From Tateyamaria omphalii (GTDB taxonomy: Bacteria > Pseudomonadota > Alphaproteobacteria > Rhodobacterales > Rhodobacteraceae): a stretch of DNA of 64,000 nucleotides. Made by a program: the position numbers and the translations under genes. The notes under the pieces are model-generated. The model did not search any database and had not been told where the DNA came from. It worked only from the letters and a program-made list of their open reading frames with translations. Positions 50,672-64,000 of this stretch are shown here, one piece after another. The stretch covers positions 3,626,001 through 3,690,000 of the forward strand of contig NZ_CP019312.1 in NCBI RefSeq assembly GCF_001969365.1, read 5' to 3'. The stretch's first letter is position 1, and every line of letters begins with the position of its first letter.

Positions 50672-50746
50672 TGGTGGGCGATACAAGGATCGAACTTGTG
50701 ACCCCTTCGATGTCAACGAAGTGCTCTACCGCTGAGCTAATCGCCC
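50672..50746 (-). tRNA. tRNA-Val (GAC)
   Basis: A 75-base tRNA on the minus strand including an encoded CCA. The acceptor stem is GGGCGAT/ATCGCCC, the D arm TAGCTCAGCGGTAGAGC, and the anticodon stem CTTCG/CGAAG holds loop TTGACAT with anticodon GAC. The T arm contains the GTTCGATCC loop. It reads valine codons GUC and GUU. It lies between rpmJ and the N-formylglutamate amidohydrolase gene. Confidence 0.96.
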
Positions 50747-53721: not shown

Positions 53722-54438
53722 TCAGTGGTTTGGAGAATGTGCCTGCGGACTGTGCATTTCTGCCAAAATCGCCTCTGCCGCAACTTTTGGGTGTGGAGAT
53801 GTCCAGATGGGACGCCCCACAACGATGTGGTCTACTCCGCTGGCGATGGCATTTGCGGGGGTTGCGACTCGCTTCTGATCGCCCAGATCGGCACCTGCGG
53901 GGCGCACGCCGGGGGTCACGATCAGCCGGTCCTTCGCCTCGGGCAGCGCCCGGATCGTGGCCGCCTCGTGCGGAGAGGCGATGACGCCATCGGCCCCGGC
54001 CTCAAACGCGCGCGCGGCCCGTTCGCTGACCAGATCGCCAATGTCGCCAGGCTTGATCAGGCTGTCGTCCAGGTCCTGCCGGTCAAGCGAGGTCAGGATC
54101 GTGACTGCCAGGATTTTCATGTCGCTGCCTGCCGCCCCCTCCTTGGCGGCGCGGACGACATGGGGGTCGCCGTGCACGGTTAGAAAGTCGAGGTCGAATT
54201 GCGCAAGACCGCGCACCGCCGATTCAACCGTTGCGCCGATGTCGAAAAGTTTCATGTCGAGGAAGATGCGTTTGCCGTGTTCCTGCTTCAGCTCATTGGC
54301 CAGGGCAAGGCCGCCGCCGGTCAACATGCCCAGCCCGATCTTGTAGAAACTGACGCTGTCGCCCAGCCGGTCGGCCAGGTCCAGCCCGGCCACCGCATTG
54401 GGTACGTCCATTGCCACGATCAACCTGTCATCTGCCAT
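53722..54438 (-). CDS. pyrF: Orotidine 5'-phosphate decarboxylase
   Basis: A 238-residue TIM-barrel enzyme for the last step of UMP synthesis, orotidine-5'-phosphate to UMP. Catalytic tetrad Asp61, Lys63, Asp66 (LDMKLFDIG), substrate-phosphate loop TPGVRP near 180 and VVGRPIW near 210. The start is taken as ATG at 54438; an ATG two codons earlier is directly against the GGGGGA site. It is a single gene, convergent with the Nudix gene. Confidence 0.96.
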   Translation of the reverse strand: MADDRLIVAMDVPNAVAGLDLADRLGDSVSFYKIGLGMLTGGGLALANELKQEHGKRIFLDMKLFDIGATVESAVRGLAQFDLDFLTVHGDPHVVRAAKEGAAGSDMKILAVTILTSLDRQDLDDSLIKPGDIGDLVSERAARAFEAGADGVIASPHEAATIRALPEAKDRLIVTPGVRPAGADLGDQKRVATPANAIASGVDHIVVGRPIWTSPHPKVAAEAILAEMHSPQAHSPNH

Positions 54439-54489
54439 CTTCATTCCCCCACGCTTGGCCTGCGGTCGGTGTAGGGTAGGTGCGGCGTG

Positions 54490-54521
54490 AAAAAAAGCCC
54501 GGATGCGATCTGCATCCGGGC
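54490..54521 (-). terminator. Intrinsic terminator of the 103-residue gene
   Basis: A 10-base stem GCCCGGATGC/GCATCCGGGC with a 5-base loop, followed on the minus strand by TTTTTTT. It lies about 110 bases beyond the stop of the small protein at 54634 and before pyrF. This is a strong, classical intrinsic terminator. Confidence 0.85.
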
Positions 54522-54633
54522 AAGTGTCAGAGACTTAGCAGGCAGGCACCTGTCTCTGTTGTGGTATCGTTGCGGTGCATGGCGCGGGGGACAGAAGAAG
54601 CGCAATGCGGATCCGGCAACGAACCGAGGGAAC

Positions 54634-54945
54634 TTAGGCCGCGCGCGGGCGCAGCGTTGCGAATTTGTCGATGGTCATGCGCCGCAGTCCGGCCAGGCGG
54701 TTGGGACGGCGCGGTGTCATTGCTGCAGGCAGGTGCGCATTGCGGGATCGGCCGTGGGTATGCCGCCGCATCGCCTGCGTGGCGAGCCCTTCGGCCGCAT
54801 CCTCGAACGCCATGGTGATGGGTGCGTTGATGGCGCAGGCATAGCTGCGCGAATCTCTGTCGTCGTGAACGGTCACGAGGGCTTCGAAAGACTGCGTGGC
54901 GGCGTTGTAGATCACATCGCTCAGTTGCAACGGAACAGTCTGCAT
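54634..54945 (-). CDS. Small conserved-looking Arg-rich protein
   Basis: A 103-residue protein: the first half has a beta-rich pattern (LQLSDVIYNAATQSFEALVTVHD), with YACAINAPITMAFEDAAEGLATQAMRR in the middle; the second half is Arg/His-rich with probable helix. The ATG at 54945 has AGGTG 6 bases upstream. A strong terminator follows downstream, supporting a real transcript. No family name recalled. It is divergent from clpB, in a 444-base shared gap. Confidence 0.7.
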   Translation of the reverse strand: MQTVPLQLSDVIYNAATQSFEALVTVHDDRDSRSYACAINAPITMAFEDAAEGLATQAMRRHTHGRSRNAHLPAAMTPRRPNRLAGLRRMTIDKFATLRPRAA

Positions 54946-55281
54946 TTTGGTCACCTACATGTTGTGGTTCTGCTCGTACAACTTGCAAGATGGGTGGCCG
55001 GTTCCCGGATTTCAGGGGGAAAATCTGTCACGTCGATTCACGGAACCGTGCGTGTGTGACTGGTGCGCCTGTCTGGATTTTTCGCAAGATTCTGAAATCG
55101 TTAACTTTTTGGCAACGGTCGCGTATGGAAAATAGGCTTGGGCGTAAGCCGTTGAATCAGCAAGATTTTGCTGAAATTTGTGAGCAGCCCGTATGGTTGT
55201 GAAGGAAAACCGTGAGTTTGGGGGCGTTTTGGCGCCGTGACATGTGGCGTGAAAATTTGGCGCAGAATTCGACCTGTGACA

Positions 55282-55310
55282 CTTGTGCAACGCATGCGCC
55301 TTCCCCATTT
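55282..55310 (+). promoter_or_regulatory. Sigma-32 (heat-shock) promoter of clpB
   Basis: CTTGTG (55282-55287), 16 bases, then CCCATTT (55304-55310), close to the RpoH consensus CTTGAA/CCCAT-T. The -10 end is 80 bases before the clpB ATG. The remaining 5' part of the 444-base gap (54946-55281) is AT-richer than the genes and shows no further gene; it would also hold the promoter of the divergent small protein. Confidence 0.65.
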
Positions 55311-55389
55311 CTGATGCGTAGGCCCGAAGGCCCGTGTGCCTCTGAGAGGGCGCGGCTCGAACCGGGCGCTAAAAAAGGAGAAATGACCC

Positions 55390-58005
55390 ATGGACTTGTC
55401 GAAGTTCACGGAGCGGTCGCGCGGCTTTGTCCAAGCGGCCCAGACGATTGCAGCCCGCGAAAGCCACCAGCGGCTGGCCCCCGAACATGTGTTGAAAGCG
55501 TTGATGGATGATGAGCAGGGCCTCGCCGCCAACCTGATCACGCGTGCTGGCGGTGATCCGGGCCGGGTGCTGACCCATGTGGACCAGACGTTGGCCAAGA
55601 TGCCCCAGGTGACGGGCGATGCGGCCCAGGTCTATCTGGACAACGCGACGGCCAAGGTGCTGGCCGAGGCCGAGGCGCTGGCCAAGAAGGCGGGCGACAG
55701 TTTCGTGCCGGTGGAGCGTGTGCTGATGGCGCTTGGCATGGTCAAATCGGGCGCCAAGGATGCGCTTGAGGCGGGCAAGGTGAACCCGCAGGCGCTGAAT
55801 TCTGCCATCAATGATATTCGCAAGGGCCGCACCGCCGACAGTGCCAGCGCCGAGGAAGGCTATGACGCGCTGAAGAAATACGCGATGGACCTGACAGAGC
55901 GTGCCGAGGCGGGCAAGATCGACCCCATCATCGGGCGTGACGAGGAAATCCGCCGCGCCATGCAGGTGCTGAGCCGCCGGACCAAGAACAATCCGGTTCT
56001 GATTGGTGAACCTGGTGTCGGTAAGACCGCGATTGCCGAGGGGCTTGCTCTGCGCATCGTCAACGGTGACGTGCCCGAGAGCTTGCGCAACAAGCGGCTG
56101 TTGGCCTTGGACATGGGCGCACTGATCGCGGGTGCAAAGTACCGCGGTGAGTTCGAGGAACGGCTCAAGGCCGTACTGACCGAGGTGACTGAGGCGGCCG
56201 GAGAGATCGTGCTGTTCATCGACGAAATGCACACGCTTGTGGGTGCGGGCAAGACGGATGGTGCGATGGATGCTGCCAACCTGATCAAACCGGCGCTTGC
56301 GCGCGGTGAGTTGCACTGTGTTGGGGCCACGACCCTCGATGAGTACCGCAAGTATGTCGAGAAGGACGCCGCTCTGGCCCGTCGTTTCCAGCCGGTGATG
56401 ATTGCCGAGCCGACGGTGGAGGATACGATCAGCATCCTGCGCGGGATCAAGGAGAAGTATGAACTGCACCACGGTGTGCGCGTTTCGGATTCTGCGCTCG
56501 TGACCGCTGCAACGCTGTCGCATCGCTACATCACGGACCGCTTCTTGCCCGACAAGGCGATTGATTTGGTGGATGAGGCCGCCAGCCGTTTGCGGATGGA
56601 GGTGGATTCCAAGCCCGAGGAATTGGATGCCTTGGACCGCCAGATCCTGCAAATGCAGATCGAGGTAGAGGCGCTGCGGCTTGAGGACGATCAGGCGTCG
56701 AAGGATCGGCTTGAGACCCTTGAAAAGGACCTTGCCGACCTGCAGGAGCGCAGTGCCGAGATGACGGCGCAGTGGCAGGGTGAAAGGGACAAGCTCGCCT
56801 CGGCTCGTGACATCAAGGAGCAGTTGGACCACGCCCGCGCCGCGTTGGATATCGCCAAGCGTGAGGGCAACCTCGCGAAAGCGGGAGAGCTGTCCTACGG
56901 CGTGATCCCCGATCTCGAGCGCAAGCTGTCCGATGCCGAAGGCGGCGAGACGGACGCGATGGTGGCCGAGGCCGTGCGCCCCGAGCAGATCGCGAGCGTG
57001 GTAGAGCGTTGGACCGGTATTCCGACCTCGAAGATGCTGGAAGGCGAACGTGAAAAGCTGCTCCGCATGGAAGACCAGCTGCACAATCGTGTCATCGGTC
57101 AGGACAGCGCCGTGCGGGCCGTTGCCAACGCAGTACGGCGCGCGCGCGCTGGGCTGAATGATGAGAACCGTCCGCTTGGGTCGTTCCTGTTTCTCGGGCC
57201 GACAGGCGTGGGCAAGACCGAGCTGACCAAGGCGGTTGCCGAGTTCCTGTTTGATGACGATAGCGCGATGGTTCGGATCGACATGTCGGAATTCATGGAA
57301 AAGCACGCGGTTGCGCGGCTGATCGGGGCGCCTCCGGGCTATGTGGGATATGATGAGGGCGGCGTGCTGACCGAGGCTGTGCGGCGGCGCCCCTATCAGG
57401 TCGTTCTTTTTGATGAGGTCGAGAAGGCGCACCCGGATGTCTTCAATGTGCTCCTTCAGGTTCTGGATGATGGCGTGCTGACGGATGGGCAGGGGCGGAC
57501 CGTGGATTTCAAGCAGACGCTGATCATTCTCACCTCGAACCTTGGCGCTCAGGCGCTCAGCCAGCTGCCGGATGGGGCGGATGCGTTCCAGGCGCGGCGG
57601 GATGTGATGGATGCGGTGCGGGCGCATTTCCGGCCGGAATTCCTGAACCGGCTGGATGAGACGATCATCTTTGACCGGCTGGCGCGCGAGGATATGGACG
57701 GGATCGTGACCATCCAGATGGCCCGGCTTCTCAAGCGGTTGGCGGCCCGGAAAATCGAGCTGTCGCTGGATGAGGCGGCCAAGACCTGGCTGGCGGATGA
57801 GGGATATGACCCGGTTTTCGGGGCGCGGCCCTTGAAACGGGTGATCCAATCGGCGCTTCAGAATCCGCTGGCAGAGATGCTGCTGGCCGGGGATATCAAG
57901 GATGGGGAGACGGTCGAAGTGACGGTCGGATCCGAGGGGCTTTTGATCGGGGACCGGGTTTCGGGGACCAATCGGCCCCGGCCCGAGGATGCGGTCGTGC
58001 ACTGA
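55390..58005 (+). CDS. clpB: ATP-dependent disaggregase ClpB
   Basis: An 871-residue Hsp100 chaperone, slightly longer than E. coli ClpB (857). Clp-N repeat domain (1-145), AAA1 with Walker A GEPGVGKT at 206-213 and Walker [11 protein letters not shown], coiled-coil middle domain (about 405-525), AAA2 with Walker A GPTGVGKT at 603-610 and FDEVEKAH. It extracts proteins from aggregates with DnaK. GGAG lies 9 bases upstream; an out-of-frame ATG at 55383 sits between it and the true start. A heat-shock promoter precedes it and a perfect hairpin follows. Confidence 0.97.
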
Positions 58006-58037
58006 TTTTGATGGGCCCCGGATGGGGCCGTGGACCT

Positions 58038-58060
58038 GGGTGTCCCACGCTGGGACACCC
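58038..58060 (+). terminator. Hairpin terminator of clpB
   Basis: A perfect 10-base stem GGGTGTCCCA/TGGGACACCC with loop CGC, 33 bases beyond the clpB stop. The composition falls sharply to AT-rich from about 58080 onward, so this hairpin is the last native-looking sequence before the NACHT island. Confidence 0.75.
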
Positions 58061-58197
58061 CACGCCCCCTTAGACTTCAATGGGTTACAGATGGGGATTT
58101 AGGATTTGTTAGGGTTTTGCTTCCCTATCAAAACTGTCGGGAGCATGCGCACTTGCAGTTGCCCCAAGTCAATAGACCGACACATTGATATTCTCCG

Positions 58198-60153
58198 TCA
58201 GAATAGATCGGAAAACGCGCCGCTGACAGACTTGTATGCTTTCCGCTCTTGTTTGACAAATGCTATAAAAATTTTTGCCTCTTCCACAATAAAAGCATGC
58301 ATGCGCGATTGCTTAAAGGCATCAACCAAACCGGCTTCGTCGTCCGGCGGTATTTGATTGTCCGCGAGGGATTCGCTTGAAGAAATCCGAATTCGATTCG
58401 CTTCAACCAAAACAAATATTCTATCAAACAATTTCTCGAACTTTTTGAGCGCGAGGCGCTCAAACTTCATGTCATCTTTTGTAGAGGAATCGTGCCTCGC
58501 CCAACCTTGATTGGATGCAACAGACCTTATAGCGTAGTAGAAATCAGCCATCTCCCCGCTATGCCGCAGCGTTATTTGCGCGCGTTTCTGTTTGCGCTTG
58601 CTTACAACTTCGCTGAATACCTTATCCAAGTGTATAGTGAATACAGAGCCAGTTCTCGCGGAAAAGCTTTCATAGATTTTGGCATCAGTCTTTCTGTCAA
58701 TTAAGGATTTAAATTTCTGTGTATTGGGAATTACATACTTTTCGCGAAATAAATCTGGGTTTATATCGGCGACCATAGGCAAAACACTATCGCTGACGCG
58801 TGCCGCGAACTTGGAAAAAATTTCTTCTATGTTTCTGCTCGCTACTCGTGCAATACAGTATGCCGCAAAATACTCCTGAAATGAACGGTGAGTAAATGTA
58901 TATGTAAGACCCTCTAGTTTGAGTAAACATACACTTATCGTAAGGTCATCAAGAAAATGTTCGCTGCTTACTTGGTGTGCTTCAATGGTCTGCGCTTGAT
59001 TGATGGCATCCAGTAACTCACTGCGCGTGAATTCAATTTGCTCATCGTAGTAAGTTTTTAGACAGAAGTACGCGGTGAGACGCAGAAAGTCGAACTTGTC
59101 AAGGTCGCAATGAAATATGCGCTTATATCCCTTCGTGAGGTCGTGCCGGTGATAGAGCGCCTCGAATGCTTGCTCATAAAACTGAAACATTCTCTTCGGG
59201 ATGTCAGGATTGTAAGAAAAGCTAACAAGCATCATGTATGCGAGTAACGGGTTTGACAGGAAGTCCTGGTGCGCCGAAAAAAGAGACTCAAATCTTTGAA
59301 GGAATTTTGATTTCAGATCAGCATCGTAGTCTGCTCTTTCGATCAACAGCTTTGATCGCTCTTCATCCAGCGCTTCAACTTTGGCGACAGAAAAATCGTC
59401 CCAACCCATAAACCGCTCGTCGGGCCGACTTGTCAACACAATACAAAGCTTTGGATTGCTGTTTTTTAACTGAAGTATAAGATCTTGAAATCTCTGTCGT
59501 CGGTCGAAGTTGATCTCATCAAAGCCGTCAAGAAACAGAATAAACTCACCATTTCTAAGAGCCCTGTTGAATTCATCTTGTCTTATTTGTGATCCTGACT
59601 TTGTGATTGAGTGATATATGAAATCCTCAATATTATTATGTGTAAAGTTGTTGAGGTGTCTCAACTCAAGAAAAAATGGAATCAATCCATCTGGCTTTTC
59701 AAAATATGATAGCCACAAATACCTCATGAACATAGATTTTCCGCCACCGCCGGCACCCAAAATCACGGTTGATACACCAGATCGTATCTTTTCAATTAAA
59801 CTATACTGATCATAACTCCGACCATTCATGTTGAAAGATTGGTCTACGTATATCGATAACGTTTCGGATGATACGTCAGAGTTCAAAATTGTTTTTACTT
59901 TCGTACACTTATTGAATGTTGCCTCTAGATGATCAGAGAAGTCTCTCTTCAGTGTTTCGCCGGTGCTCTGAATCTGACGATGCGGCCGCTTTACATAGTC
60001 GGTCGTAAGGTTTGTTAAAAGACCCGAGAAACCCTGTATTGCAATTTGTCCCAATATACTATCGGCAACCATCATGACCCTCGCTAAGCTTTTTTTGTCG
60101 GCACTTTGCAGCGAAAGTATCCCATCAACATTGACCGGTAAACGCACAATCAC
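58198..60153 (-). CDS. NACHT-module STAND NTPase (bacterial NLR-like protein)
   Basis: About 651 residues. An N-terminal region (1-125) of unrecognised fold precedes the NACHT module: Walker A GAGGGGKS at 133-140, Walker B FILFLDGFDEI at 204-214, sensor-1 region IVLTSRPD at 238-245 and the winged-helix end YTFTHRSFQEYFAAYCIA near 420. An unrecognised C-terminal domain of roughly 200 residues may be the sensor. Proteins of this bNACHT kind act as anti-phage NLRs that oligomerise on infection. The gene is markedly AT-rich (59641-59700 has 22 G+C in 60). Start uncertain: GTG at 60153 or 60147, or ATG at residues 27-28. Confidence 0.88.
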   Translation of the reverse strand: MIVRLPVNVDGILSLQSADKKSLARVMMVADSILGQIAIQGFSGLLTNLTTDYVKRPHRQIQSTGETLKRDFSDHLEATFNKCTKVKTILNSDVSSETLSIYVDQSFNMNGRSYDQYSLIEKIRSGVSTVILGAGGGGKSMFMRYLWLSYFEKPDGLIPFFLELRHLNNFTHNNIEDFIYHSITKSGSQIRQDEFNRALRNGEFILFLDGFDEINFDRRQRFQDLILQLKNSNPKLCIVLTSRPDERFMGWDDFSVAKVEALDEERSKLLIERADYDADLKSKFLQRFESLFSAHQDFLSNPLLAYMMLVSFSYNPDIPKRMFQFYEQAFEALYHRHDLTKGYKRIFHCDLDKFDFLRLTAYFCLKTYYDEQIEFTRSELLDAINQAQTIEAHQVSSEHFLDDLTISVCLLKLEGLTYTFTHRSFQEYFAAYCIARVASRNIEEIFSKFAARVSDSVLPMVADINPDLFREKYVIPNTQKFKSLIDRKTDAKIYESFSARTGSVFTIHLDKVFSEVVSKRKQKRAQITLRHSGEMADFYYAIRSVASNQGWARHDSSTKDDMKFERLALKKFEKLFDRIFVLVEANRIRISSSESLADNQIPPDDEAGLVDAFKQSRMHAFIVEEAKIFIAFVKQERKAYKSVSGAFSDLF

Positions 60154-60253
60154 TCTTTTTTGCCGAGCGCCTCCGAGTTACGTGGATCGGTTCGAGGTCT
60201 GTATTGCTGGTTTGATGGGTCTGGTTCGCAGTGACTTTTACGGATGAATGCCT

Positions 60254-60288
60254 ACACAGCTTCTTTGCAATAGCTGCCGAAGCTGTGT
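60254..60288 (-). terminator. Hairpin beyond the parB-like gene
   Basis: A perfect 10-base stem ACACAGCTTC/GAAGCTGTGT around a 15-base loop, 32 bases after the stop of the minus-strand ParB-like gene. No U run follows. It would separate ParB transcription from the NACHT gene downstream on the same strand and marks the right edge of the AT-rich island. Confidence 0.55.
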
Positions 60289-60319
60289 TTGAATTTAGAA
60301 GTGAACCCTCGCGGCGGGG

Positions 60320-61162
60320 CTAGCCCTCTGTCCCGAAGAGCCGCTCTATGGTTTCCATCACGTCGTCCATGAGGCCCGGAACCCTGGCCTCTGGTCCCGA
60401 AAACCGCAGGATCCAGCCGGAGCGGGTGACTTCGCGGCGGATTTGCAGGCCGCGGGCGAACTTGATCGACCGGCGGGGGGCCGTGGGCGTGCCGGGGGCG
60501 GTGTCGCCGTGTTGGGGGTTGAGCGCTTCGGTGATGACCGGTTCGAGTGCTGCCCATTGGCCCGCCAGCGTGTCGCTGCCCGAGGTGCGGAGGGTGTCGG
60601 AGAGGAGGTCTTCCCACCCGGCGCGCAAGGCCGAGGCCAGCCGTTCGATGCGCGCGGTGGAGAGCCTTTCGGGGGTGGCGAGGGCGCCGTCGAAGACCTG
60701 TACCACCAGGACGATGCTGCGCAGCCGCGCCTTTTTCTGACGCGAGAGCGGGCCGAACAGGGTGGCGATGGCGGCCTCTTCGCCCTCGAACAGGTCGGAG
60801 CGGATGCAATCGAGGATCAGCCGTCCTTTCTCCCACGGGCTGATCTGGGACCGGATTTCGTTTTCGGTGACCATCGCGGCCATCGCGTCGGGGATGTCGC
60901 GGGGGCTGCGGAGGAAGGCGGGGATCGTCTCGTGTTTCAGCGCGCGGGCTGCGGCCAGGCGGCGGAAGCCGGAGATCAGCCCGTAGCGGTGCCCGTCCTG
61001 TGGTTGGCTGAGTTGCCAGACCTCGATCGGTTGGCGCAGGCCGTTGAGGAGGATGGAGTGTTCCAGCTCCGCCTGCGCTTCGGCGTCCTGCGTGTCGCGG
61101 TCGCGGGGCAGGGCGTTTGCGTAGATTTCGCTGAGTGGGATGGTCTGGAGGGGGTCGGTCAT
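60320..61162 (-). CDS. ParB-like partition/nuclease-fold protein
   Basis: A 280-residue protein. The ParB/Srx N-terminal domain (1-115) holds SILLNGLRQPIEVW, GFRRLAAARAL and TENEIRSQISPWEKGR, which form the CTP-binding and clamp region. A central helical domain (about 120-190) and a C-terminal RepB-like part with FARGLQIRREVTRSGWILRF follow. ParB proteins slide on DNA for segregation; here no parA is adjacent, so this is an orphan chromosomal paralogue of RepB type. Its function may be regulatory. It lies directly upstream of the NACHT gene on the same strand. Confidence 0.82.
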   Translation of the reverse strand: MTDPLQTIPLSEIYANALPRDRDTQDAEAQAELEHSILLNGLRQPIEVWQLSQPQDGHRYGLISGFRRLAAARALKHETIPAFLRSPRDIPDAMAAMVTENEIRSQISPWEKGRLILDCIRSDLFEGEEAAIATLFGPLSRQKKARLRSIVLVVQVFDGALATPERLSTARIERLASALRAGWEDLLSDTLRTSGSDTLAGQWAALEPVITEALNPQHGDTAPGTPTAPRRSIKFARGLQIRREVTRSGWILRFSGPEARVPGLMDDVMETIERLFGTEG

Positions 61163-61225
61163 GGGGGCCTCATCTGCGGGTTGGCGTGCAGTATGGGGCC
61201 GGGGGGCGCGGTGTTGCGCAAAGCG

Positions 61226-61252
61226 AAGGGGCCCCGAACGGTGGGGCCCCTT
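61226..61252 (-). terminator. Hairpin terminator of the fasciclin gene
   Basis: A perfect 10-base stem AAGGGGCCCC/GGGGCCCCTT with a 7-base loop, 12 bases after the fasciclin stop on the minus strand. The A/T ends of the stem give a partial U tract (TTCGCTTT). Confidence 0.75.
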
Positions 61253-61264
61253 GCTGTGGTCGGT

Positions 61265-61753
61265 TTAGCTGTTGCCTTCGGGCAGGATCACCTGGTCGAT
61301 CACGTGGATCACGCCGTTCGAGGTTTCGATGTCGGCGGAGACGACGGTTGCCTGTTCGACCATGACGCCGTTGTCGAGGTCGATGGTGACGGCCTCACCC
61401 TGGACGGTGGTTGCTTCCATGTCGTCGGACAGGTCGGTCGACATCACTTTGCCCGGCACAACGTGGTAGGTCAGGATCGCCACGAGCTGGTCCTTGTTCT
61501 CGGGCAGCAGCAGGGTTTCGACCGTGCCTTCGGGCAGGGCGGCGAAGGCCTCATCCGTGGGTGCGAAGACGGTGAACGGGCCGTCGCCTTTCAGCGTGTC
61601 GACGAGGTCGGCGGCCTGCACGGCGGCGACCAGCGTTTCGAACGTGCCTGCGTCAACGGCGGTGTCGACGATGTCTTTTTTCATCGAACCTGCGATGGCT
61701 GCGGTGGCGAAGGCTGCGGTGGCGACTGTGGCCAGAAGTGTCTTACGGAACAT
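61265..61753 (-). CDS. Secreted fasciclin (FAS1) domain protein
   Basis: A 162-residue secreted protein: signal peptide to AIA near residue 21, then one FAS1 domain. Conserved FAS1 boxes H1 ([14 protein letters not shown]) and H2 ([12 protein letters not shown]) are present, with the YHV motif between. FAS1 domains mediate adhesion or bind small hydrophobic molecules. GGAG lies 9 bases before the ATG at 61753. It is a single gene, convergent to none and followed by a strong hairpin. Confidence 0.93.
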
Positions 61754-61999
61754 AGGTGTGTCTCCATTAAGGTTGCGATAACCGTCAGGCGGCATCGTGA
61801 AGCTAACGCGCGTGGGGGCTGCTTGGATCACGTGGAAATTTTTCCCACGGTGTCTTGAAATGGGGCGCGGGTTGCCTAAGCTGGGGCGGTTTGCGATTTC
61901 CACTCACGGTTTTGTTAAGTTTGGCAAAAAGCTGCCTGTCCTTGCGTCCGCCTGCGCGCCTTTGCAGAGTGGCCGCGACGTGCATGGGAGGGTGGCCGG

Positions 62000-63493
62000 T
62001 TGAGTTTTGCGATGTCCGTGCTTGAGGTGATGGTCCTTGGGTTTTTCTTTGTCATTGGCCTTGGCGTGGCCGTGGCGCTGGTGATGTTTGTCATCGACCG
62101 GGTGCAGACCCATGATGCCATTCGCCGGAACTATCCCGTCATCGGGCGGTTTCGGCATTTGTTTTCGCAGCTGGGCGAGTTCTTTCGTCAGTACTTCTTT
62201 GCCATGGACCGGGAGGAGCTGCCGTTCAACCGCGCACAGCGGGAGTGGATCAAGCGGTCGGGCGAGGGGGTCAGCAACACGGTGGCGTTCGGGTCCACGC
62301 GGAACCTGAGTGTCGTGGGGACGCCGATTTTTGTGAATGCGGCCTTTCCCCCACTGGCCGATCAGTTTGCCCGCACCGCGCCGATGGTGATTGGCGAGGG
62401 CGCGCGGGTGCCGTTTACGGCGCGGTCGTTCTTTAACATCTCGGGGATGAGTTATGGGGCGATTTCGAAGCCTGCGGTCCGGGCGTTGAGCCGGGGCGCG
62501 AAGGAGGCGGGTGTTTGGATGAACACCGGTGAAGGGGGCCTGAGCCCCTATCATCTGGAGGGCGGCTGCGACATTGTCTTTCAGATCGGGACGGCCAAGT
62601 TCGGGGTGCGCGACGAGGAGGGCAACCTGAGCGACGACAAGCTGCGCGAGGTGGCGACGCACAAGCAGGTGCGGATGTTCGAGATCAAGCTGGCGCAGGG
62701 GGCGAAGCCGGGCAAGGGCGGCATCCTGCCCGGCGAGAAGGTGACGGAGGAGATTGCCAAGATCCGTGGGCTGCGGGTCGGTCAGGACGGCATATCGCCC
62801 AACCGCCATGCGGAGGTGGATGATTGGGGCGACCTGCTGGATCTGATCTGCCACATTCGTGGCGTGACCGGCAAACCGGTGGGCATCAAGACCGTGGTGG
62901 GCGCGGAGGCCCCGATTGCGGACCTGTTTGCCACGATCAACGCGCGCGGTGCGGAATGCGCGCCGGACTTTATTACTGTCGACGGGGGCGAGGGCGGCAC
63001 GGGTGCCGCGCCCATGCCGCTGATCGACCTGGTGGGCATGTCCATCCGCGAGGCGCTGGTGTCGGTCGTGGACCTGCGGGATCAGGCGGGGTTGAAGGAT
63101 CGTATTCGCGTTGTCGCCTCCGGCAAGCTGGTGAACCCCGGCGATGTGGCCTGGGCGCTGGCGGCGGGGGCGGATTTTGTCACCACCGCGCGCGGCTTCA
63201 TGTTCAGCCTGGGCTGTATTCAGGCGCTCAAGTGCAACAAGAACACGTGCCCAACGGGCATCACCACACATGACAAGCGGTTCCAGAAGGGCCTTGTCGT
63301 GGCGGACAAGGAAAAGCGTGTCACCCGCTATGCCAGCGAGATCATCCACGAGGTCGAGACCATTGCCCATTCGGTCGGCGTGGCCGAGCCGCGGATGATG
63401 CGCCGCCGTCATGTGCGCATCGTGCAGGATGATGGTCGGTCGCGGCCGCTGAATGAAATCACCCCGAGTTACAGCCCGGTGACAAGGCCGTGA
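62000..63493 (+). CDS. FMN-binding glutamate synthase-like protein
   Basis: A 497-residue protein with an N-terminal membrane helix (about 5-30) and the synthase (GltB alpha-2) domain. The FMN loop TVDGGEGGTGAAP lies near 330. The 3Fe-4S cluster cysteines C-x5-C-x4-C are in the SLGCIQALKCNKNTCPTG segment near 412. The glutaminase domain is absent, so it should use free ammonia or act on another substrate. The start at TTG 62000 is supported by GGAGG 9 bases upstream; ATG at 62012 would lie 21 bases away. It precedes msrP by 72 bases. Confidence 0.88.
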   Translation: MSFAMSVLEVMVLGFFFVIGLGVAVALVMFVIDRVQTHDAIRRNYPVIGRFRHLFSQLGEFFRQYFFAMDREELPFNRAQREWIKRSGEGVSNTVAFGSTRNLSVVGTPIFVNAAFPPLADQFARTAPMVIGEGARVPFTARSFFNISGMSYGAISKPAVRALSRGAKEAGVWMNTGEGGLSPYHLEGGCDIVFQIGTAKFGVRDEEGNLSDDKLREVATHKQVRMFEIKLAQGAKPGKGGILPGEKVTEEIAKIRGLRVGQDGISPNRHAEVDDWGDLLDLICHIRGVTGKPVGIKTVVGAEAPIADLFATINARGAECAPDFITVDGGEGGTGAAPMPLIDLVGMSIREALVSVVDLRDQAGLKDRIRVVASGKLVNPGDVAWALAAGADFVTTARGFMFSLGCIQALKCNKNTCPTGITTHDKRFQKGLVVADKEKRVTRYASEIIHEVETIAHSVGVAEPRMMRRRHVRIVQDDGRSRPLNEITPSYSPVTRP

Positions 63494-63565
63494 GCGGGGT
63501 TCAATTTGGAACCCATTCGGAACCATCTATGTGACAAGGTGCTTGGAACCGCAGGAGACACATGA

Positions 63566-64000
63566 ATGGCCCATCGTTGGAAGAACACCCTGACGCGCGC
63601 AGACGCGACGCCGCTGGCGGCGTATATGAACCGTCGGCAGATCATGGCAGGGGCGATGGGCCTGGGCCTGATGGGCGCGGCGGGCATGGCGCGGGCGCAA
63701 GAGGCCGAGGAGCTGGTGCCGAGCGCCTGGGAAGACATCACACAATATAACAATTTCTATGAGTTCGGGACGGGCAAGGGTGATCCGGCACGCAATGCGC
63801 ATACCCTGACGACAGAGCCGTGGACCGTTGTCATCGACGGGTTGGTCGACAACCCCGGCGACTATTCCATGGAACAGATCATGGACGCCATGACGTTCGA
63901 GGAACGCATCTATCGTTTCCGCTGTGTCGAGGCGTGGTCGATGGTGATCCCGTGGAACGGATTTGAACTGGCGGACCTGCTGACCTTGGCCGGCGTGCAG
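63566..64000 (+). CDS. msrP: MsrP-type methionine sulfoxide reductase catalytic subunit (partial)
   Basis: The first 145 residues of a molybdopterin periplasmic reductase; the gene continues past the window end. Tat signal peptide with twin Arg in MNRRQIMAG (residues 21-29) and cleavage near ARAQ at 45. The mature part shows YNNFYEFGTGKGDP and the molybdenum-ligand Cys in RFRCVEAWSM near 119. It repairs oxidised periplasmic methionines and takes electrons from the MsrQ haem protein, whose gene should follow outside the window. AGGAGA lies 7 bases before the ATG at 63566; an ATG four bases earlier is out of frame. Confidence 0.93.
   Translation, partial: MAHRWKNTLTRADATPLAAYMNRRQIMAGAMGLGLMGAAGMARAQEAEELVPSAWEDITQYNNFYEFGTGKGDPARNAHTLTTEPWTVVIDGLVDNPGDYSMEQIMDAMTFEERIYRFRCVEAWSMVIPWNGFELADLLTLAGVQ

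Follow-up and report, generated by a model that had tools for sequence, protein, structure and literature searches.

The clades into which bacterial NACHT (bNACHT) proteins are sorted were reportedly defined in a 2023 Cell paper. Clade 14 includes bNACHT02, bNACHT11 and bNACHT12 (WP_021519735.1), which carry a SNaCT domain; bNACHT12 defends Escherichia coli against DNA and RNA phages, bNACHT02 likewise guards E. coli from phages and, as far as that account goes, effector domains of the clade are not readily discernible (PMC12169576). Here, we analyse a 64,000-nucleotide stretch of the Tateyamaria omphalii genome (the window), in which a single-gene island between clpB and a ParB-like gene encodes a NACHT STAND NTPase (Table 1). 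We consider it likely that this gene is a solitary anti-phage bNACHT STAND NTPase built like the SNaCT-type bNACHT02, bNACHT11 and bNACHT12. The case is built on an intact NACHT module, a predicted NLR-like fold, N-terminal homology to bNACHT12, a SNaCT1-like order of predicted elements, the patchy, mobile distribution of its relatives and the lack of a conserved partner.

The likeness to bNACHT12 (located by accession at L077:2673-4508) lies in the overall plan: a single gene for about 600 amino acids, with homologous N-terminal 100 residues, a NACHT domain and a winged-helix end. As in relatives of bNACHT12, a short C-terminal domain with the same predicted order of elements follows, and no effector domain is recognisable. 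Identity between the two proteins is 28% across residues 102-412, that is, in the NACHT region only, and the alignment of family profiles extends from residue 3 to 484 (probability 100, E = 4.4e-50). Profiles of single segments align with bNACHT12 at a probability of 81.6% (E = 1.3e-6) for the N-terminal 100 residues and 99.9% for the NACHT and middle segments, with control pairs of non-corresponding segments below 5%. Unlike bNACHT12, the window protein has a C-terminal sequence with no detectable relation to that protein and belongs to a tree group of its own. Its likeness to bNACHT02 and bNACHT11 is drawn from their descriptions and not from direct comparison. The clade 6 proteins bNACHT25 and bNACHT32, also set beside it by description, have the central NACHT module in common with it; as described, they add an N-terminal PD-(D/E)XK nuclease and NCH1 (PMC12169576), whereas the window protein has no match to such a nuclease, the mark of clade 6.

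The NACHT protein and its parts

NACHT is the only Pfam family above cut-off in the window protein (E = 4.4e-11, 43.3 bits; cut-off 26.7), and with it come the other marks of a NACHT STAND NTPase, namely Walker A, a Walker B of the DGxDE form and a sensor arginine. TSRPDERF spans residues 214-221 and SFQEYFAAY residues 397-405 (624-residue numbering), and across 113 aligned sequences the columns of the key motif residues vary little or not at all. Pfam and the alignment thus confirm the preliminary description of this DNA, which had named Walker A, Walker B and SFQEYFAAY as signs of a NACHT STAND NTPase of the NLR-like (bNACHT) kind. It had also recognised no killing domain, whether nuclease, TIR or other, and the Pfam scan likewise finds none, with no nuclease family matching at E up to 10. 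A sequence search of the PDB gave no match at E up to 1. EruA (NF058535), one of the closest known systems, matches in the NACHT region, weakly (E = 0.0039; 15.3 bits against a cut-off of 1000 for a model of 1318 positions).

The predicted structure (mean predicted local distance difference test, pLDDT, 92.4) is matched best by the animal proteins NLRC4, NLRP3 and NOD2 (the best two tied), with the match beginning at about residue 36; a viral structure library returned generic AAA/STAND matches. The window protein shares the NACHT, winged-helix and helical arrangement of these NLRs, but has no CARD, PYD or LRR match, and its N-terminal addition is one predicted helix.

The C-terminal domain follows the SNaCT pattern in the order of its predicted elements. 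After the winged-helix region, the window model runs H430-437, H439-453, h455-458, H466-474, E477-481, E499-503, H507-521, H532-545, E551-557, E560-564, H576-587 and H590-623 (H and h, helix; E, strand). The model of P0206, a protein with a Pfam SNaCT1 match at 442-637, has a mean pLDDT of 86.7, with low values at 540-546 and 568-580, and runs H434-443, H445-458, h462-466, H470-482, E486-492, E499-503, H511-518, H527-537, (h552-558), E561-565, E583-589, H590-596 and H600-636. The two orders are identical except for a short extra helix, a comparison of order and not of superposed structures. SNaCT1 itself (PF22710; Vibrio and related relatives of bNACHT12) has the same position and element order, but the window protein lacks the Pfam match. 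Outside its own family, no sequence relative of the C-terminal region could be detected. Its sequence has diverged past recognition with the predicted element order kept, and the NACHT body and N-terminus are well kept, which points to the C-terminal domain as the sensor side.

At the other end, two helices are predicted ahead of the NACHT region. The preliminary description had left residues 1-125 unrecognised; most of that part belongs to the NACHT region, since the structural matches to NLRs start at about residue 36. Its proposal of a novel N-terminal domain fails for residues 1-100, which are homologous to bNACHT12, and holds in that no known effector domain was recognised; nor are the two termini undescribed as it had supposed, given that the N-terminus aligns with bNACHT12 and the C-terminus follows the SNaCT1 order. 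The C-terminal domain apart, the only element outside the stretch overlaid by NLR structures is the helix at residues 2-27. In close relatives it reads IxxxGFxGLLxNLxxxY, and F15, L18 and L22 are each the most frequent residue of their column (in 76%, 65% and 65% of 113 rows). Neither its mean hydrophobicity (0.31) nor its moment (0.34) stands out, and helices shorter than this one score above it on both counts. It is the only candidate output part, though a weakly supported one. In some plant resistosomes, the first helix plays a comparable membrane-disturbing role. It is conceivable, though rather doubtful, that the effector of SNaCT-like bNACHT proteins is the first helix alone, with infection-triggered NACHT rings gathering helices 2-27, which would disturb the membrane. 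Just one short helix of the model belongs neither to the NLR-like body nor to the C-terminal domain, which makes the question of clade 14 output testable by small deletions.

Distribution and proposed function

Protein matches at E up to 1e-3 numbered 544 among 7996 scored candidates, and the closest relative among the best 120 of these 544, own record aside, has 61% identity. The preliminary description had asked for presence or absence in relatives, and the distribution is patchy. Among 20 genomes of the genus only the window genome has a real relative (a second match, at 28% identity over 152 residues, was too weak to count), and 2 of the 295 Rhodobacteraceae genomes match at E up to 1e-30, the window genome included. 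A scan of named genomes confirmed 116 relatives in alphaproteobacteria, other proteobacteria, Bacteroidota and Firmicutes, 80 of which were kept for locus comparison. A small Vibrio phage record (Vinavirales) holds a distant relative noted as NLR_like_bNACHT01 (L092:12520-14310).

No conserved partner gene was found among the scanned neighbours of the relatives (146 of 236 neighbour open reading frames (ORFs); ORF calling covered 47 of the 80 loci). The commonest families were ABC_tran (5), SMC_N and AAA_29 (4 each), ThiC and UvrA (3 each), and TIR_2 and phage integrase (2 each); most PADLOC matches at E up to 1e-15 were to ABC-type models, and GajB, AriB and RTasHel were each matched once. 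uvrA adjoins three loci (L122, L131 and L132) and thiC three others (L103, L109 and L138), which suggests a preference of NACHT relatives for the ends of housekeeping genes, as with clpB here.

By analogy with the family, in which we place the sensor at the C-terminus, the switch in the NACHT module and the output at the N-terminus, we infer protection by the gene, its cue, its oligomerisation and the role of its N-terminus. In the resting state the NACHT module would be closed. A phage product, or a host process disturbed in infection, would act on the SNaCT-like domain at the C-terminus; in response, the NACHT module would swap nucleotide and oligomerise, and the clustered N-termini (helix 2-27) would halt growth or kill the cell ahead of phage release.

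Several results weigh against this assignment. The C-terminal domain has no match to Pfam SNaCT1, it aligns with the bNACHT12 C-terminus at a profile probability of only 3.3%, and iterated profiles did not join the two C-terminal families above decoys (best cross-family E 0.042 against a best decoy of 0.11 in the same run; one small seed set pulled in decoys as well). A tree of the NACHT region (47 rows, four of them on long branches and none a labelled member of another published clade) puts the window protein within a 23-row group of its own homologues (support 97/99), and bNACHT12 within a separate 21-row group (support 99/84). PADLOC 2.0 has no match for the gene, a promoter scan found no promoter-like site upstream of its start, no experiment on the subfamily was found among the literature matches listed, and recognisable defence-type families adjoin only 7 of the 21 loci of the ParB-like gene (raw count; see below). 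The SNaCT1 model does not decide membership, because the clade 14 protein bNACHT12 also goes without a match. The tree places the window protein outside the bNACHT12 group; hence we do not file it in clade 14 but call it 'built like' its members and, judging by sequence and predicted model, describe it as a solitary SNaCT-like bNACHT of a distinct subfamily.

Other explanations draw on the same data. Lying next to clpB and the ParB-like gene, the protein might instead act in regulation or stress, for instance in connection with ClpB or chromosome partitioning, and bNACHT25, from a different clade, is described as acting through the host chaperone DnaJ (PMC12169576). We regard such a role as quite unlikely: clpB, the ParB-like gene, FAS1 and gltS occur at none of the 80 related loci (within flanks of at most 10 kb, less on several short contigs), and in the 19 of 20 genus genomes that lack a real relative clpB adjoins other cargo or none. 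The occurrence of relatives on 184 plasmid records and 2 phage records, together with exact cargo borders common to six genomes, would suit cargo that guards a mobile element from competing mobile DNA or plasmids and not the cell from lytic phage. However, the borders carry no integrase, direct repeat or tRNA, and within the window no element structure surrounds the gene, so this too is unlikely.

A decayed, inactive acquisition is very improbable. Some relatives are indeed split, and 2 of the 47 loci with called ORFs lack the single host ORF seen in the other 45, but the window copy retains all 624 codons, 0 inner stops and every motif. The gene is real and intact and is most likely an anti-phage gene of a known kind in a distinct subfamily.

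Gene limits and composition

The ORF of the preliminary description (58198..60153, minus strand) exists and stays open in the ORF list of the window; its start probably lies further in, at the ATG at 60072, giving 624 instead of 651 amino acids. This start is preferred because close homologues begin there, at residue 28 of the longest ORF, and GAGG stands six bases upstream; the ATG at 60075 is a possible alternative. Promoter and terminator scans gave counts near or below those of shuffles.

The AT-rich single-gene island of the preliminary description is borne out: the NACHT gene has a GC content of 0.42 (0.45 at third codon positions), far below its five neighbouring genes (0.63-0.68 and 0.75-0.86). 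We reject this AT-richness as a sign of recent transfer into one genome alone. Among the 80 relative loci, 73 were testable (7 were dropped for short flanks), and all 73 had a matched stretch with less GC than its flanks (median difference -0.153), compared with 32 of 69 control stretches. Low GC is a trait of this NACHT family, not peculiar to the Tateyamaria genome.

Table 1 Features of the NACHT locus in the window (residues in the 624-residue numbering)
Feature	Position	Strand	Comment
NACHT STAND NTPase gene	58198..60072	-	624 amino acids + stop; longest ORF up to 60153
N-terminal helix, predicted	59992..60069	-	residues 2-27; candidate output part
N-terminal part of NACHT region	59773..59991	-	residues 28-100; conserved CxxxKT; homologous to bNACHT12 N-terminus
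NACHT nucleotide-binding domain	59308..59772	-	residues 101-255
Walker A GAGGGGKS	59734..59757	-	residues 106-113
Walker B FLDGFDEI	59512..59535	-	residues 180-187
Helical and winged-helix region containing FTHRSFQEYFAA	58699..59307	-	residues 256-458
C-terminal domain	58201..58698	-	residues 459-624; SNaCT-like in the order of its predicted helices and strands; presumed sensor side
clpB, left flanking gene	55390..58005	+	
Conserved left border following clpB stop	58006..58122		contains palindrome 58038-58060, 10-bp arms
Cargo stretch	58123..60316		DNA absent from six sister genomes having both borders
ParB-like gene (ParB_N, TIGR00180), right flanking gene	60320..61162	-	

A cargo-exchange site next to the ParB-like gene

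The chromosomal spot itself is the less expected part of the finding. Six genomes match the window DNA up to 58117-58122 and again from 60317-60334, with no match between (in one of them, G002, clpB and the ParB-like gene are on separate contigs). An orthologue of the ParB-like gene is present in 8 of 20 genus genomes (at least 67% identity) and 15 of 295 family genomes (E up to 1e-60), which gives 21 loci as two were counted twice; clpB lies outside the fetched stretch in 5 of 13 family loci. The preliminary description had suggested that the NACHT protein may cooperate with the ParB-like protein. We reject such a partnership, as seven other genus genomes hold the ParB-like gene in the same place without the NACHT gene, and none of the 80 relative loci has it nearby. 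The ParB-like gene borders a cargo-exchange site rather than partnering the NACHT gene. ParA was not seen beside it.

The seven loci with defence-type families are those of the window genome (the NACHT gene), G007 (DUF4297 in two ORFs, with HerA), G016 (an OLD/GajA/AriA-like ATPase), G270 (DUF4062, described in its source as a TIR-like NADase; PMC13174449), G065 (GmrSD in pieces, with an insertion between), G315 (a PtuA/OLD-like ATPase) and G166 (GmrSD_N). Ten loci fall outside the count (G002, G004, G011, G014, G015, G078, G179, G222, G277 and G292), their adjoining ORFs matching no counted family, with G179 and parts of G277 and G222 unscanned; G011 has an ABC-type ATPase too, left out of the count. 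No clear cargo ORF was seen beside the ParB-like gene in G071, G122, G206 and G288. The site is a place to seek defence genes yet to be tested.

Adjoining AT-rich cargo differs between genomes across the ParB-site stretches (window 60320-61162, L053-L071 and L191-L203). AT-rich single ORFs of 519-600 amino acids occupy the same site at L055:696-2498, L054:6731-8416, L057:859-2415 and L192:5771-7546, and these four have no Pfam or PADLOC match. Across the genus, clpB is followed by different AT-rich ORFs, RTX-type ORFs or nothing, with clpB-FAS1 gaps of only 57-108 bp in G003, G010 and G012. RTX-like ORFs often follow clpB in genomes without the ParB-like gene (G017, G019, G009, G018, G008 and G013); one was scanned and matched HemolysinCabind, and the others were judged by similar starts. 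Insertion via an integrase or at a tRNA was rejected on the absence of flanking direct repeats and of a border integrase or tRNA; the sole tRNA in the window is at 50672-50746, and an Rfam scan of 54000-64000 gave no match.

Directly past clpB lies the palindrome GGGTGTCCCACGCTGGGACACCC, which may serve as an operator for the ParB-like protein or simply be a hairpin. With up to two mismatches allowed, its part TGTCCCANNNTGGGACA, at 58041, recurs in 11 of the 20 other stretches that have the ParB-like gene, in 0 of 12 post-clpB stretches that lack it and four times in 1.35 Mb of unrelated loci, a co-occurrence that shared descent explains in part. One conceivable reading is that the ParB-like gene and the nearby palindrome act as an anchor and turn the 3' side of the gene into a permanent exchange site for defence genes. 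The longer form of the palindrome has two exact copies in the Tateyamaria omphalii genome.
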